64,000 nt of DNA, taken from an uncultured Thiohalocapsa sp. (GTDB lineage: Bacteria; Pseudomonadota; Gammaproteobacteria; Chromatiales; Chromatiaceae). The translations under genes and the position numbers were made by a program. Where the stretch lies: assembly GCF_913063425.1 (NCBI RefSeq), contig NZ_CAJXYK010000012.1, positions 1 through 64,000 of the forward strand. The letters are read 5' to 3'. This document shows positions 55,151 through 64,000 of the stretch, one piece after another (position 1 is the first letter of the stretch; each line of letters starts with the position of its first letter). The notes under the pieces were generated by a model. That model was given only the letters and a program-made list of their open reading frames with translations. It searched no databases and was not told where the DNA came from.

Positions 55151-56851
55151 ATGTGGCGAGATAAGGTTACCGTCCCCGTTATTTTGGTTACCGTCCCCGT
55201 TATTTTGGTGGTGGTGCTGTCGGGCTGTGCGCGGCCGGATGCGCCGCCGGCAACGCCGGGTCTGGTGGAGCTCACCATCGACCGCGCGCATGCGGCGCTG
55301 CGGGACGGGCGGCTCAGCTGCGAGGGGCTGATTCGGGGCTATCTGGCGCGTGTCCGGGCCTATGACCCGGCGCCGGATCAGGCTTCGGACAGCGAGCCGA
55401 CAGAACCACGTTTGGCGGCGCCCTCACCATCGGCTGCCGGGTCCGGGGCGCCGGTGGGCCGCCTGCGGATACCCGAGTCGGCGCCGGACGCGCTGAACGC
55501 CATCATTGCCGTCAATCCCAATGCCCTGGACCGCGCACGGGCGCTGGACGCGGAGCAGGCGAGGCTCGGGCGCCTGCGCACGCTGCACTGCATCCCGGTG
55601 CTGCTCAAGGACAACTTCGATACGGCGGACATGCCGACGGAGGCGGGCTCCGCAGCACTGGCGGGCTCCCTGCCGCCGGACGACGCCTTCATGGTGCGGC
55701 GGCTGCGCGCCGCCGGCGCCATCGTCCTGGCCAAGACCAACATGGGCGAGTGGGCCTTCAGTCCCTACCGCACCATCAGCTCCACCCACGGCGAGACCCG
55801 CAATCCCTATGACCTGTCCCGCGTGCCGGCGGGCTCCAGCGGCGGCACGGCGGCCGGTATCGCGGCCAATCTCGGCATCATCGGCATGGGTACGGACACG
55901 GGCAACTCCATCCGCGGGCCGGCGTCGCACACGGGGCTGGTGGGCATCCGCGCCACCCTCGGCGCCACCAGCCGGGACGGCATCGTGCCGTTGCTGACCA
56001 ACCGCGACGTGGGTGGACCGCTGCTGCGCACGGTGCGCGACACGGCCATCGTGTTCTCCGTGCTGGCGGGGCCCGATCCGGCGGACCCCATCACCGCAGC
56101 CGCGCGCGGGCGGGTGCCCGCGGATTACCGGCGCTTTCTCGAGCGCGACGGTCTGCGCGGCGCCCGCCTCGGGGTGCTGCGGGCGCTGATCGACACGGAG
56201 ACGGCGGACCCGGAGGTCACCGCCGTTTTCGAGCGCGCCTTGGCCGACCTCGAGCGCGCGGGCGCCACACTGGTGGACCCCTTCACCATCCCCCGCCTCG
56301 ACGCCGTCACCGAGGGCACAGGGTTTTGCAGCCGCTTCCGCTACGACCTGGACCGCTATCTGGCAACTCTGGGACCTGCCGCTCCCGTACGCTCGCTGGA
56401 CGCCATCGTCAGCGCCGGCCTGTTCCTGCCGCGGCATGCCGATGCGATGCAGTGGGCGACGGCGGCGCCCGGAGACCCCGCCGACCAGGTGCCGCCCTGC
56501 GTGGATGTGGCGGGCGACCCGCGCCGCAAGGCCCTGCTCGACGCCGTGGTCACGGCGATGGATGCGTCGCAGGTGGATGCCCTGGTCTACCCCACCTGGA
56601 GCAACCCGCCGCGGCGCGTCGGCGACGACGCCAGCCCCCACGGCAACAACAGCCCCATCATCGCCCCGCACAGCGGCCAACCCGCCATCAGCGTGCCCAT
56701 GGGCTTCACCGCGTCGGGGCTGCCGCTCGGCCTGCAACTGCTCGCCCGTCCCTTCGGCGAGCCAAAGCTGTTCCAATACGCCTACGCCTATGAGCAGGCG
56801 ACGCGGCACCGTCGGCCGCCCGCCCGGTACGGCTCCTTGGTCGATCGCTGA
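55151..56851 (+). CDS. amidase-signature lipoprotein
   Basis: A 566-residue amidase (C-N hydrolase). Ser-cisSer-Lys site: Lys in CIPVLLKDNFDTADMPTEAG S, and the Ser-rich motif in VPAGSSGGTAAGIAANLGII GMGTDTGNSIRGPASHTG. The N-terminus is MWRDKVTVPVILVTVPVILV VVLSGC, a signal with lipobox LSGC (Cys26), so it is probably a lipid-anchored enzyme; the hydrophobic core is made of two copies of a dispersed repeat. GGAGGG at 55139-55144 supports ATG 55151. The physiological amide is unknown; glutamyl-tRNA amidotransferase is unlikely as there are no gatB/gatC genes and it is exported. Confidence 0.88.
   Translation: MWRDKVTVPVILVTVPVILVVVLSGCARPDAPPATPGLVELTIDRAHAALRDGRLSCEGLIRGYLARVRAYDPAPDQASDSEPTEPRLAAPSPSAAGSGAPVGRLRIPESAPDALNAIIAVNPNALDRARALDAEQARLGRLRTLHCIPVLLKDNFDTADMPTEAGSAALAGSLPPDDAFMVRRLRAAGAIVLAKTNMGEWAFSPYRTISSTHGETRNPYDLSRVPAGSSGGTAAGIAANLGIIGMGTDTGNSIRGPASHTGLVGIRATLGATSRDGIVPLLTNRDVGGPLLRTVRDTAIVFSVLAGPDPADPITAAARGRVPADYRRFLERDGLRGARLGVLRALIDTETADPEVTAVFERALADLERAGATLVDPFTIPRLDAVTEGTGFCSRFRYDLDRYLATLGPAAPVRSLDAIVSAGLFLPRHADAMQWATAAPGDPADQVPPCVDVAGDPRRKALLDAVVTAMDASQVDALVYPTWSNPPRRVGDDASPHGNNSPIIAPHSGQPAISVPMGFTASGLPLGLQLLARPFGEPKLFQYAYAYEQATRHRRPPARYGSLVDR
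55166..55207 (+). repeat. two tandem 21-bp copies of GTTACCGTCCCCG-type repeat inside a signal peptide
   Basis: Two perfect, adjacent 21-base copies (55166-55186, 55187-55207) each encode VTVPVIL. The core GGTTACCGTCCCCG with ATAA before it is the reverse complement of CGGGGACGGTAACCTTAT near 59370, so this is a member of the dispersed family found at 59250-59390. Confidence 0.9.
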
Positions 56852-57169
56852 GCCAGCATCGCTTCGCCGCAGCCGCTGCGGTCAGCCGACCGAGCGCAGC
56901 CATCTGCGGCTGCTTGCGGCCGTGGCGCGGTGCATCGACTCCAAAGCGCCTTGCTGCCCCCCCAGAACGCTTGAAAGAACCAAGTCCCAAGGAGGGTCTC
57001 TAAGAGGCGATGACACGTAAAGACCCAGCGTCGCACTATGGTAACGGCCCCGTTTCCGTGTTATCAAAACGCTCGCGCGTGCTTGGACCACGGCCTTCGC
57101 GGCCGAGCGACAGACCGACGCGACCACTGACAAGCCACGACCATTTTTTGATAAACCGAGGACCATCCA

Positions 57170-57427
57170 ATGTCCAAGAAGAGCATCACCCCTGTTGCCG
57201 CCATCGTCGGTGCCGCGCTCGCCGGCGGCCTGAGCACGGCCCAGGCCGCCACCGCAGAGCTGTCTGCGGACGAGCTGTTCAGCGCCACCGAGCTCGACGC
57301 CGGCTACATGCAGGTCGCCGGCGCCGAGGGTAAGTGCGGCGAAGGCAAGTGCGGCGGCGACAAGGGCGAAGGCGAAGGCAAGTGCGGTGAAGGCAAGTGC
57401 GGCGAGGGTAAGTGCGGCGAGGGATGA
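57170..57427 (+). CDS. hvfA: HvfA/bufferin-type RiPP metallophore precursor with five EGKCG motifs
   Basis: An 85-residue precursor. Residues 1-27 are a Sec signal peptide (MSKKSITPVAAIVGAALAGG LSTAQAA). A 25-residue linker (LSADELFSATELDAGYMQVA) follows, then the core with EGKCG at residues 53-57, 58-62, 69-73, 74-78 and 79-83, and a Cys-free spacer GDKGEG between the second and third. In HvfA/bufferin systems a DUF692 (MNIO) enzyme turns EGKCG cysteines into oxazolone/thioamide or related five-membered heterocycles that bind copper, and the peptide is exported unfolded to the periplasm. GAGGA at 57158-57162 precedes the ATG. The downstream maturase genes (57565, 58427) confirm the family. 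Confidence 0.93.
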   Translation: MSKKSITPVAAIVGAALAGGLSTAQAATAELSADELFSATELDAGYMQVAGAEGKCGEGKCGGDKGEGEGKCGEGKCGEGKCGEG

Positions 57428-57505
57428 TGCCCATCGCGCACAGCGGCTGAGCGCCGGGCCCTACGCCCGATGCACGCCCGGTGCATCCCGCGACCCTGAG
57501 ACGGT

Positions 57506-57527
57506 CGGACCCGTAATGCCGGGTCCG
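57506..57527 (+). promoter_or_regulatory. hairpin between hvfA and hvfB
   Basis: CGGACCCG (57506-57513) pairs with CGGGTCCG (57520-57527) over a 6-base loop, without a following T-tract. Such a stem could protect the short hvfA message or attenuate read-through, giving more precursor than enzyme. Confidence 0.5.
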
Positions 57528-57564
57528 GCCGCCAACGCAGACACACCGCTCCCAGGCTGTTGCC

Positions 57565-58434
57565 ATGTACCAACCAAGCTGCCCCGTCCAGGGCGCCGGC
57601 CTCGGCCTGCGGCGGGAGTTCCTTGCCGCCGCGGCCGAGCAGCCGCCCACCGCGGTGAGCTTCTACGAAGTCGCCCCAGAGAACTGGATCGGCGTCGGCG
57701 GTCGCTTCGGGCGCCTGTTCCGCACCATGACCGAGCGCTTCCCCTTCGTCTGCCACGGTCTGTCACTGTCCATCGGCTCGCCGTCACCACTCGATGAGCC
57801 TTTCGTGCACCGCGTGAAGGCCTTTCTGGACATCCACGGCATCCGCGCCTACACGGAGCATCTGAGCTACACCTCAGACGACGGTCACCTCTACGACCTG
57901 ATGCCCATCCCGTTCACGGACGCGGCGGTGCGGCACGTGGCGGACCGGGTCCGACGCGTGCAGGACATTCTGGAGCGGCGCATCGCGCTGGAGAACGTCT
58001 CCTACTACGCCGCCCCCGGGCAAGCGATGCGCGAGATCGAGTTCATCAACGCGGTGCTGGCAGAGGCCGACTGCGACCTGCTGCTCGACGTGAACAACAT
58101 CTACGTCAACAGCATCAACCACGGCTACGATGCCGTCGAATTCCTCGAAGCCCTGCCCGCCGAGCGTGTCGTTTACTGTCACGTGGCAGGACACTACGAA
58201 GAGGCACCGGACCTGCGCGTGGACACCCACGGCGCCGACGTCATCGACCCGGTCTGGGACCTGCTCGAGCATGCCTACGCCCGCTTCGGCGTCTTCCCCA
58301 CCCTGCTGGAGCGGGACTTCAACATCCCCCCGCTGGAGCAGCTGAACGCCGAGGTCGCCCACATCGCCGCACTCCAAGCCCAACATCGAGCCCGACAGCG
58401 CCGCCCCGAGCACAGGCAGGTGGCCCATGGCTGA
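57565..58434 (+). CDS. hvfB: DUF692/MNIO-type RiPP maturase (HvfB-like)
   Basis: A 289-residue TIM-barrel multinuclear iron-dependent oxidative enzyme. Metal-binding and conserved segments: [103 protein letters not shown] and [11 protein letters not shown]. These His, Asp and Glu residues match the three-iron site of the family (MbnB, TglH, BufB). It should oxidise the EGKCG cysteines of the precursor at 57170. The end overlaps the next gene by 8 bases. Confidence 0.95.
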
Positions 58435-59227
58435 GCCCGTCACAGCAGCGCCGACGGGCGCTGACTTCCGTACCCTGCAGCGGGCTTTCGCGGCGCACAT
58501 CCGCGACCCGGCGCATGCGCCGCGGCCGGCGGATGTGGAAGAGCGCCGCATGGCTGTCTATCGGGAGCTTTTCTTCAAGAACATCTCGGGCCTGCTCGGC
58601 GCCGCCTTTCCGGTGCTGCGCCGGATACTGTCGGATGTGGACTGGGACGCGCTGGTGCGGGACTTCATGGTGCATCACCGCGCAGCCACCCCCCTGTTCC
58701 TGGAGCTCTCGCAGGAATTTCTCGACTACCTCGGCACCACCCGTGCCGACCAGAGCACGGATGACCCGCCCTTCCTGCTGGAGCTGGCCCACTACGAATG
58801 GGTCGAGCTCGCACTGGCGGTGAGCGACGACGAGCCCGACCCCACCCACGCCGACCCCAACGGCGATCTGCTGACCGGTATTCCGGTGATCTCCCCCCTC
58901 GCCTGGAACCTGAGCTATCGCTTCCCGGTGCACCGCATCGGCCCCGACTTTCAGCCGGATGCCCCGGACGCGACGCCCACCCATCTGGTGGTCTACCGTA
59001 ACCGCGCCGAGCGCATCGAGTTCCTGCAGATCAACGCCGTCACCCAGCGCCTGCTCACCCTGCTCCAGGAGGACACGCCGCGCACCGGCCGCGAGGCCAT
59101 GCAGGTCATCGCCACGGAGCTGGGCCATACGGCACCGGACCAGGTCATCGCCGCTGGCGCCAGGATGCTCGCCGACCTGCGCCGGCGCGACGTCATCCTC
59201 GGCACAGGCCGCCCCAACACGACCTGA
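58427..59227 (+). CDS. hvfC: DUF2063 partner protein (HvfC-like)
   Basis: A 266-residue protein of the DUF2063 family: [79 protein letters not shown] and a C-terminal winged-helix-like part. In MNIO systems this protein delivers the precursor to the enzyme (recognition-element role) and is needed for modification. Overlap with hvfB and absence of a separate site argue for translational coupling. Confidence 0.93.
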
Positions 59228-59244
59228 CCACCCCAATTTCGCGA

Positions 59245-59390
59245 ACAATTTCGGGGACGGTAACCCAAACCGCGACATGGCCGCGCCAAAGGGCTACACC
59301 CTGTAACGGGGACGGTATACTTAAGTCCCATCCACCGTCCGCACCCCGCACGACTAAGGGGACCCAATACGGGGACGGTAACCTTATTTG
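59245..59390. repeat. three copies of the GGGGACGGTAACC dispersed repeat
   Basis: CGGGGACGGTAACC at about 59251, CGGGGACGGTATAC at about 59299 and CGGGGACGGTAACCTTAT at about 59370 lie in the gap between hvfC and the DoxX gene. Related sequence occurs at 55166-55207 (inverted, in the amidase gene) and weakly at about 57040 before hvfA (GGTAACGGCCCCGTTTCCGT). Elements of this kind are often mobilised by REP-associated (RAYT) transposases, none of which is in the window. Confidence 0.85.
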
Positions 59391-59562
59391 CGCGACGGCC
59401 TGCGTCGCAGAGGCCGACATCGGCGTACTCCGCCGGTAGCCAGACAAATGCCCAGCCCTGGGCAGATCGATCGAATACACGCGCATGACAAGAAGCAGCC
59501 GCAGTCCCGGTCTCTGCTGAGGAATCCTCTGCAAGTCCACGCCAAGACTGGGAGAGACCCCC

Positions 59563-60189
59563 GTGATCAAGCTGTTGAACAAACTCCAGGATCTGCTCGA
59601 TGCCACCCGCGCCCTGGACTTCCTCGGCCCACTGGCCCTCAGGCTCTACCTCGCGCCCGTCTTCTGGGTGGCGGGGACCAATAAGGTCGTGGGCTTCGAG
59701 AACACCGTCGCCTGGTTCGGCAACCCCGATTGGGGTCTTGGACTGCCCTTCCCGACCCTGATGGCGGCGTTGGCCACGGGGACCGAGGTCGTGGGTGCCG
59801 TCCTGCTGCTGGTGGGCTTCGCGGTGCGCTGGATCAGCATCCCGCTGATGGTGACCATGCTGGTGGCCATGGTCACCGTGCACATCCAGAACGGCTGGCA
59901 GGCCATTGCCGATTCCGGCTCCGCCTTCGCATCACCCAGGCTCGGCATCTTCCAGCTCGAGGACGTGGGTCCGGCCGGCGAGCGCCTCGCTGCCGCCAAG
60001 GCGATTCTTCGCGAGCACGGCAACTACGACTGGCTGACGGAGGCCGGCAGCTTCGTGGTGCTGAACAACGGCATCGAATTCGCCGCCACCTACTTCGTCA
60101 TGCTGCTCGTGCTGTTCTTCATCGGCGCGGGGCGCTATCTCAGCGTCGATCATTGGCTGGACCGCCGCTGCCGGAGCGCACATCGCTGA
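59563..60189 (+). CDS. DoxX-family membrane protein of the RiPP operon
   Basis: A 208-residue DoxX protein with four helices: PLALRLYLAPVFWVAGTNKV, LMAALATGTEVVGAVLLLVG, SIPLMVTMLVAMVTVHIQNG and FAATYFVMLLVLFFIGAGRY, and the long periplasmic loop typical of the form linked to HvfA/bufferin clusters (annotated in some databases as a Cu-binding maturation protein). The start is GTG at 59563 with GGGAGAG about 8 bases upstream. A 335-base repeat-filled gap separates it from hvfC, so it may now have separate expression. Confidence 0.88.
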   Translation: MIKLLNKLQDLLDATRALDFLGPLALRLYLAPVFWVAGTNKVVGFENTVAWFGNPDWGLGLPFPTLMAALATGTEVVGAVLLLVGFAVRWISIPLMVTMLVAMVTVHIQNGWQAIADSGSAFASPRLGIFQLEDVGPAGERLAAAKAILREHGNYDWLTEAGSFVVLNNGIEFAATYFVMLLVLFFIGAGRYLSVDHWLDRRCRSAHR

Positions 60190-60224
60190 TGCAGTGCCGC
60201 GAAAAATCCGATGCCCTCCGATCA

Positions 60225-60300
60225 CTTGCCAGCGGTGGACTGAAGTCCGCCTGGCCCAGGGTGCCTACTGAAGTCGGCAGACCCGGGGCGACCTCGCCAC
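60225..60300. repeat. CCGACTTCCAGTCGG-family palindromes (diverged)
   Basis: AGCGGTGGACTGAAGTCCGC and ACTGAAGTCGGC are diverged members of the palindrome family seen at 18.9, 25.08 and 32.0 kb. Confidence 0.6.
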
Positions 60301-60432
60301 TTCCGCATTGGAGCACTGGGCCGCAGGTACCGCAGGCGCCCGGGCTGCGTCGTTTGCGTTAGACTGCGCGCCGACGGACCGGTGCCGGCCGGCCCGGAGC
60401 CACAGATGTTGCACGCAGACGGAGCCCGGGAC

Positions 60433-60735
60433 ATGCCCCAGCTGACCAACCTGACCAAGAGCAAAGCGGTGCGGAATACGGCCATCGGCATCGGTGTCGC
60501 TGTGCTGGTGCCTGTGGCCGTGACCTTCCTGGCGCCTTATGTGCGACCGGCGGCACGCTCGGTGGTGAAGGCGGGTCTCCTCGCGTTGGAAAAGGGCAAA
60601 GAGACCGCGGCGGAGCTGGGCGAAATGATGGACGATCTGGTGGCAGAGGTGCGCGACGAACTGCGTGAGGAGCGCGAGGCCGCCCTCGCCGCCATGCACC
60701 GCGACACCGAGGACGGGCCGCGCGGCGGCGCCTGA
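60433..60735 (+). CDS. DUF5132 membrane-associated protein
   Basis: A 100-residue protein: MPQLTNLTKSKAVRNTAIGI, one helix (GVAVLVPVAVTFLAPYVRPA), RSVVKAGLLALEKGKETAAE and an acidic amphipathic C-terminus (DDLVAEVRDELREEREAALA). This is the DUF5132 layout. Family members commonly sit beside heavy-metal-associated-domain proteins and copper P-type ATPases. GGAG 8 bases before ATG 60433 fixes the start over two in-frame upstream ATGs. Confidence 0.8.
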   Translation: MPQLTNLTKSKAVRNTAIGIGVAVLVPVAVTFLAPYVRPAARSVVKAGLLALEKGKETAAELGEMMDDLVAEVRDELREEREAALAAMHRDTEDGPRGGA

Positions 60736-60760
60736 GCCGTTCAGACCACCCGAGCCCGAT

Positions 60761-61264
60761 GTGCGCACCGTGAGCGCCGCCGCCGCACGCATCGCCCACC
60801 GCAGCAGCGGCCGCCTGCGCCTGCGCCTGCCGCAGCGCCGGCACGACCTGCCCTTCTTCCTCGCGCTGTACGAGGCACTGAGCGCAGCCCCGGAGATCGA
60901 CGAGGTCACGATCAACCCGGCCACCGGCAGCGTGCTGCTCTGGTTCGATCCGGTGCATGAGGCAGCCCTGCCGTCGGCCCTGAGCCGCACCGGCCTGCTG
61001 TTGCTGGACGAGGACCAGCTCCATCCGGAGCATGCCGAGCGCCACCTGTTCCACGTCTCGCTGAACGACATGCGCATCGTCGTCTTCCTGATCATGACGA
61101 CGCTCTCCATCCACCAGCTGCTCAAGGGCCAACTGCTGGCGCCCGCGCTGACCATGCTGCTCTATGTCGTCGACCTTGCGGTGGGCATGCGTCTGGAGCG
61201 CGATGCCGCTGCGGGGCATGGTGCGGAGCCCGCCGCCGCCGCGGACACGGCGGGCGCCGACTGA
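60761..61264 (+). CDS. HMA-like (heavy-metal-associated fold) membrane protein
   Basis: A protein of about 167 residues. IAHRSSGRLRLRLPQRRHDL, IDEVTINPATGSVLLWFDPV and LHPEHAERHLFHVSL resemble the ferredoxin-like fold of HMA_2-type domains that lack the Cys-x-x-Cys metal site; a membrane segment follows (MRIVVFLIMTTLSIHQLLKG QLLAPALTMLLYVVDLAVGM). No ATG is suitable; GTG 60761 or 60770 is the likely start, 25-35 bases after the DUF5132 gene. Such proteins accompany metal-handling gene clusters; the role is not known. Confidence 0.7.
   Translation: MRTVSAAAARIAHRSSGRLRLRLPQRRHDLPFFLALYEALSAAPEIDEVTINPATGSVLLWFDPVHEAALPSALSRTGLLLLDEDQLHPEHAERHLFHVSLNDMRIVVFLIMTTLSIHQLLKGQLLAPALTMLLYVVDLAVGMRLERDAAAGHGAEPAAAADTAGAD

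Positions 61265-61966: not shown

Positions 61967-64000
<2,034 letters not shown>

Follow-up and report, generated by a model that had tools for sequence, protein, structure and literature searches.

The window analysed here is a 64,000-nucleotide stretch of a contig from an uncultured Thiohalocapsa sp. (NZ_CAJXYK010000012.1, positions 1 to 64,000), and it carries four plus-strand open reading frames for a repeat-bearing peptide, a DUF692 enzyme, a DUF2063 protein and a DoxX protein. The initial annotation had placed these four frames and had read five EGKCG motifs, in a 2+3 arrangement, in the first of them; both statements were confirmed to the base. The features are as follows.

57170..57427, plus strand: HvfA-family (EGKCG) RiPP precursor, 85 aa (open reading frame and NCBIfam NF050137)
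57326..57355, plus strand: first EGKCG block, 2 units (sequence and codons, hand-counted coordinates)
57356..57373, plus strand: Cys-free linker GDKGEG, 6 residues (hand-counted coordinates)
57374..57418, plus strand: second EGKCG block, 3 units (hand-counted coordinates)
57565..58434, plus strand: HvfB-family MNIO (DUF692) maturase, 289 aa (NF003818; Pfam MbnB_TglH_ChrH; PDB 3bww)
58427..59227, plus strand: HvfC-family partner, DUF2063 and NGO1945_C (PME1), 266 aa (NF050145; PF09836, PF22106; PDB 3dee)
59563..60189, plus strand: HvfX-family DoxX membrane protein, 208 aa, GTG start (NF050144; PF07681)

The precursor reads MSKKSITPVAAIVGAALAGGLSTAQA and, after a cleavage mark set by eye, ATAELSADELFSATELDAGYMQVAGA, followed by EGKCG EGKCG GDKGEG EGKCG EGKCG EGKCG EG; the C-terminal part of the translated frame is AEGKCG-EGKCG-GDKGEG-EGKCG-EGKCG-EGKCG-EG. 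Its N-terminus looks Sec-like on a reading by eye only (KK, a hydrophobic stretch and AQA). The HvfA-family domain model KCGExKCG_twice (NF050137, NCBIfam) matched the precursor at 30.2 bits (cut-off 19.5, E=2.6e-7), its sole match in the window's genome at E up to 10, and the same search matched in 1 of 14 control genomes and rose over the cut-off in none of the 14. A tandem-repeat program found periods of 15 and 33 bases, the period of 15 in 6.5 copies. Because the domain match is over its cut-off and the array is a tandem one, the EGKCG array is above chance. The strict HvfA equivalog model (NF050188) was not reached (33.4 bits against a cut-off of 95, NCBIfam), and the precursor is a member of the HvfA family but not a strict HvfA. 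At E up to 0.01 it had no match in Pfam, to DUF2282 or to any other family.

The MNIO exceeds the cut-off of the HvfB model NF003818 (443 against 360 bits, NCBIfam) and matches Pfam MbnB_TglH_ChrH at E=4e-105 and, by sequence, PDB 3bww at E=1.3e-75; the methanobactin model MbnB (TIGR04159) stays below its cut-off (40 against 325 bits, NCBIfam). Its gene overlaps that of the DUF2063 partner by 8 bases. The partner scores 323 bits with the HvfC model NF050145 (cut-off 142, NCBIfam), contains PF09836 (DUF2063) and PF22106 (NGO1945_C), with an RRE assigned by model name only, and matches PDB 3dee by sequence at E=1.5e-5. Both 3bww (MNIO) and 3dee (PME1) are cited as belonging to captophorin-type loci in the accessible text of PMC13097082. 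The DoxX gene begins after a further 335 bases, and its product scores 242 bits with the HvfX model NF050144 (cut-off 80, NCBIfam). With the HvfA-family domain, HvfB, HvfC and HvfX models all over cut-off, the earlier assignment of the cluster to the HvfA-type copper RiPP operons is upheld at the level of family.

An MNIO ortholog is present in eight of ten genomes of the genus, the window's included; the window's MNIO shares 71-86% identity with the other seven, and in G004 and G005 the MNIOs are distant ones only. DoxX was considered as a core gene and rejected: it is optional in the genus, since just three of the eight loci have it 3' of HvfC, namely those of the window's genome (G000), of G007 and of G008, where it follows HvfC at about 1.3 kb. 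G001 and G009 have a DoxX copy on another contig, and none was found in G002, G003, G004, G005 or G006, of which G002, G004 and G005 are less than 90% complete. The window's genome has a second HvfX-like DoxX gene (G000:C10:10979-11560; L121 1462-2148), 70% identical to the first and directly 3' of an open reading frame (265-1353 of L121) that by eye has the look of a metallo-beta-lactamase-fold hydrolase. This genome hence holds two HvfX-like genes, though a single MNIO by our query (sole match at E up to 0.001).

It has been reported that HvfB requires N175, D242 and H244 (accessible text of PMC13419390) and that R15, R16, D249 and F250 are the FonB residues named for the Lys-Cys group (accessible text of PMC13097082). 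By motif position, the window's MNIO has the NN pair at 177-178, DxH at D220/H222, Arg-Arg at R16-R17 and Asp-Phe at D251-F252, and the counterparts of the four FonB residues are R16, R17, D251 and F252, a pairing by motif and not by structure. We followed these positions through 110 related MNIO loci, made up of the 30 best matches of one search and the best 80 of at least 578 of another, which are the closest relatives and not a sample of the class. Among the matches listed, the counterparts of HvfB N175, D242 and H244 (N177/N178, D220 and H222) are found in 110 of 110 loci, and N177, N178, D220, H222 and D251 are invariant. A candidate precursor, for which at least two EGKCG-like motifs were required, was found at 94 of the 110 loci listed (89 distinct). 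Among these 94, Arg stands at R16 in 91 and at R17 in 92; the exceptions are L073 with Lys, L022 with Lys-Gln and L021, which is unaligned. Phe at position 252 accompanies every EGKCG-like precursor (94/94) and is found in 12 of the 16 loci without one, again among the matches listed. The position is taken by Asp, as reported for Cys-Lys enzymes in the accessible text of PMC13097082, in L027-L030, whose MNIOs are 39-43% identical and whose Cys-rich upstream frames look Cys-Lys by eye.

The 16 loci without a candidate precursor (of the 110 listed) are of several kinds. The sequence of L018 and L045 ends within about 110 bases 5' of the MNIO gene, L102 has a related Cys-rich frame not caught by the pattern, and upstream of the L027-L030 MNIOs lie Cys-rich frames of another kind. 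In the remaining nine of the 110 loci listed (L008, L014, L020, L049, L052, L060, L072, L088 and L094), no precursor was recognised among up to six nearest open reading frames within 2 kb (about 1.5 kb for L008, L014 and L020). L008, L049 and L052, the last two from Thiocapsa, have MNIOs about 77% identical to the window's by local alignment, with no EGKCG-like precursor recognised in that upstream stretch; in those genomes the substrate may lie elsewhere.

The class to which this cluster belongs is already published, as Buf_EGKCG/oxazolin (PMC12452194) and as captophorins (PMC13097082), and the following comparisons draw on the accessible parts of those papers and of PMC13419390. Captophorins are products of MNIO and PME1 clusters, by which Cys-rich peptides are furnished with 5-thiooxazoles; more than 20,000 examples of the class have been counted, and EGKCG is its commonest 5-mer repeat (PMC13097082). 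Its member fontiphorin (fonABC, Fontimonas thermophila) shares with the window EGKCG-type repeats in blocks, an MNIO with PME1, and the Lys-Cys specificity residues. It carries seven 5-thiooxazoles, binds copper by native MS and has, judged from its LysC fragments, a 2+3+2 layout, in contrast to five sites in 2+3 here; the fon cluster as presented consists of precursor, MNIO and PME1 only, whereas the window adds DoxX (PMC13097082). The LysC fragments lose 8, 12 and 8 H, as expected for modification at 2, 3 and 2 sites (PMC13097082); in fontiphorin, processing thus seems to be complete along a blocked array. The hvf operon of Haemophilus influenzae (HvfA, HvfB, HvfC and HvfX), which makes oxazolin, has the same four gene types as the window, and its HvfA likewise has EGKCG motifs after a Sec signal, the window's being Sec-like by eye (PMC13419390). 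That HvfA has six Cys in three AEGKCGEGKCG motifs and loses 4 Da per modified Cys (PMC13419390), whereas the window's precursor falls below the strict HvfA model; the oxazolin structure has been revised to 5-thiooxazole (PMC13097082). The Buf_EGKCG/oxazolin group comprises about 2,000 proteins of 31-506 residues, mostly from Pseudomonadota, which share repeated EGKCG with the window but arrange it in regular 17-residue pairs, unlike the one pair and one triple seen here (PMC12452194). No paper naming both Thiohalocapsa and DUF692 was found in the literature library searched, and thus no published description of this locus. With this cluster, a genus of purple sulfur bacteria joins a large class of copper peptides that was defined recently; taken alone, the cluster is ordinary.

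We consider it highly probable that the cluster is an EGKCG-type captophorin (oxazolin/fontiphorin-type) biosynthetic operon. By analogy with characterised relatives, an HvfA-like peptide would be made with a Sec-type leader, and the HvfB MNIO with its HvfC partner would most likely convert the cysteines of all five Lys-Cys-Gly sites to 5-thiooxazoles by oxidation in the cytoplasm (-4 Da at each site, about -20 Da for the whole peptide). The modified peptide would then be exported, bind excess copper(I) through its ring thiolates and buffer copper or a related stress in the periplasm, with DoxX as a putative accessory membrane protein and GDKGEG as a presumed ordinary Cys-free linker between EGKCG blocks. 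Several results count against this reading: the shortfall with the strict HvfA model, the optional DoxX, the nine listed loci with an MNIO and no recognised precursor, the lack of any copper-specific regulator recognised by NCBIfam and Pfam in nine proteins of and beside the cluster, and the lack of a promoter-like site on the operon's strand in a scan of 56850-60450. The one promoter-like site found in that scan is on the minus strand (0.2 expected) and was given no weight.

The initial annotation had taken the GDKGEG spacer for a degenerate repeat, that is, a sixth unit that had lost its cysteine. To its credit, arrays of the genus do differ in block pattern, two linker+EGKCG stretches in G009 differ at only 1 of 33 bases, and linkers may have arisen from units in the distant past. 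Among the matches listed, however, EGKCG-like blocks are separated at least once by a Cys-free linker in 86 of the 89 distinct precursors, and 88 have a linker of some kind; the three precursors without a Cys-free one are L013, at a contig end, and L077 and L091, whose sole linker contains Cys. Linkers are exclusively Cys-free in 72 of these 89 listed precursors, and 16 have at least one linker with a Cys outside the motif pattern. The listed precursors hold 280 linkers, 261 of them without Cys and most commonly six residues long (70/261), and 369 blocks, of which 173 have one unit, 176 two, 18 three and 2 four; 14 of the 89 frames were scored over their last 190 residues only, so that their unit counts may be low. 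Furthermore, Cys-free linkers are present in all eight genus loci with an orthologous MNIO, and two further members of the genus, G001 and G009, have GDKGEG itself. The linker has six residues and the unit five, whereas the seemingly Cys-less units of L064 and L093 (EGSSG) keep the five-residue frame and show a substitution, which speaks against a recent Cys loss in the window. A lost sixth unit is thus very unlikely, and since all eight genus loci have Cys-free linkers and some share this very sequence, GDKGEG is most simply an inherited, ordinary Cys-free linker of the family. As a separate observation, L026, L057 and L071 have EGKCG precursors with a pair of EF-hands inside the array and EGKCG blocks on both sides (EF-hand_5 and EF-hand_1 over Pfam cut-offs in L026 and L057, the motif only in L071). 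EF-hands have been placed at the C-terminus of a short EGKCG domain (accessible text of PMC12452194), and the internal placement may be a variant.

The expansion or contraction of the array proposed in the initial annotation is borne out in the genus; the 2+3 spacing, whose conservation it had suggested checking, recurs in only 1 of the 7 other loci. The pattern is 2+3 in the window and in G001 (both with GDKGEG), 3+2 in G008 and G007 (both DDKGEG), 3+3 in G003 (DAKGEG; variant units EGQCG and EGMCG), 2+1+2 in G009 (GDKGEG twice), 1+3 in G006 (GGQGDDGKDG; EGTCG) and 1+1 in G002 (GTKGEG; EGSCG). These seven relatives (G001, G002, G003, G006, G007, G008 and G009) share with the window an orthologous MNIO and HvfC, and their linkers end in KGEG in all except G006, whereas block patterns and some units differ. 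At the DNA level of the window's array, unit 1 equals unit 5 and unit 2 equals unit 4, which codon preference could explain in part. Because unit counts (2, 4, 5 and 6) and block patterns (six distinct ones in eight loci) differ among close relatives, the array turns over while the enzymes stay conserved. The locus thus displays array change among near relatives whose enzymes are conserved, and the genus, with arrays of 2, 4, 5 or 6 Cys in six patterns over eight loci, is a natural series for relating repeat layout to copper loading. One could speculate that the block pattern is a selected trait, in which blocks of 1-4 EGKCG would act as separate copper sites spaced by Cys-free linkers, and purple sulfur bacteria would retune metal stoichiometry by gain and loss of 15 bp (EGKCG) and 33 bp (linker+EGKCG) while conserving the enzymes; we regard this as rather unlikely.

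The cluster had also been called bufferin-type, and a bona fide bufferin operon, with a BufA1 (DUF2282) or a BufA2 (6/12-Cys) precursor, would have the same MNIO, DUF2063 and DoxX core genes. The BufB model NF050167 does match the MNIO at 268 bits, but this is below its own cut-off of 310 (NCBIfam), whereas HvfB is above its own; in addition, the precursor is without a DUF2282 match and has five Cys, and Phe, not Asp, stands at the position marking Cys-Lys enzymes. In its strict sense the term bufferin is not supported, and such an operon is extremely improbable here. A decayed or non-functional cluster, for which one could cite the two-unit array of G002 (1+1) as a sign of how short arrays can be, has next to no probability, with all frames open, the MNIO catalytic residues intact and the enzyme 71-86% identical in seven other genomes of the genus.

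We also examined the surroundings of the captophorin-type operon. A TTATCA...TGATAA inverted repeat (57061-57066 and 57149-57154) lies 5' of the precursor. We weighed it as a possible operator and dropped it, because the upstream regions of the other seven genus loci, each of about 270 bases, have no TGATAA (0/7) and have TTATCA in 2 of 7. Three terminator-like sites (1.7 expected) came out of the scan of 56850-60450, including a plus-strand one 3' of DoxX at 60335, and no weight was put on them. Genes for a DUF5132 protein and for an HMA_2-like protein (27.9 bits, short of the cut-off of 30) lie 3' of DoxX at 60382-61264. Of the 8 genus loci, 4 have DUF5132 next to the cluster (G000, G001, G002 and G007), and these genes were rejected as operon parts because DUF5132 is on another contig in G003, G006, G008 and G009.

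The gap between HvfC and DoxX contains three copies of a dispersed 10-base core, GGGGACGGTA (59253-59385), which occurs twice more near the start of an amidase gene (55163-55198). Two of the three gap copies also fit CGGGGACGGTANNCTT, a longer pattern of 16 bases that recurs genome-wide: when up to 1 mismatch is allowed, it has 63 matches in the genome and its reversed form has 1. Our guess is that this element is a REP-type repeat family. Finally, a long minus-strand open reading frame at 61967-64000, open at the end of the window, has a C-terminal tail whose runs of Asp/Glu make it extremely acidic.
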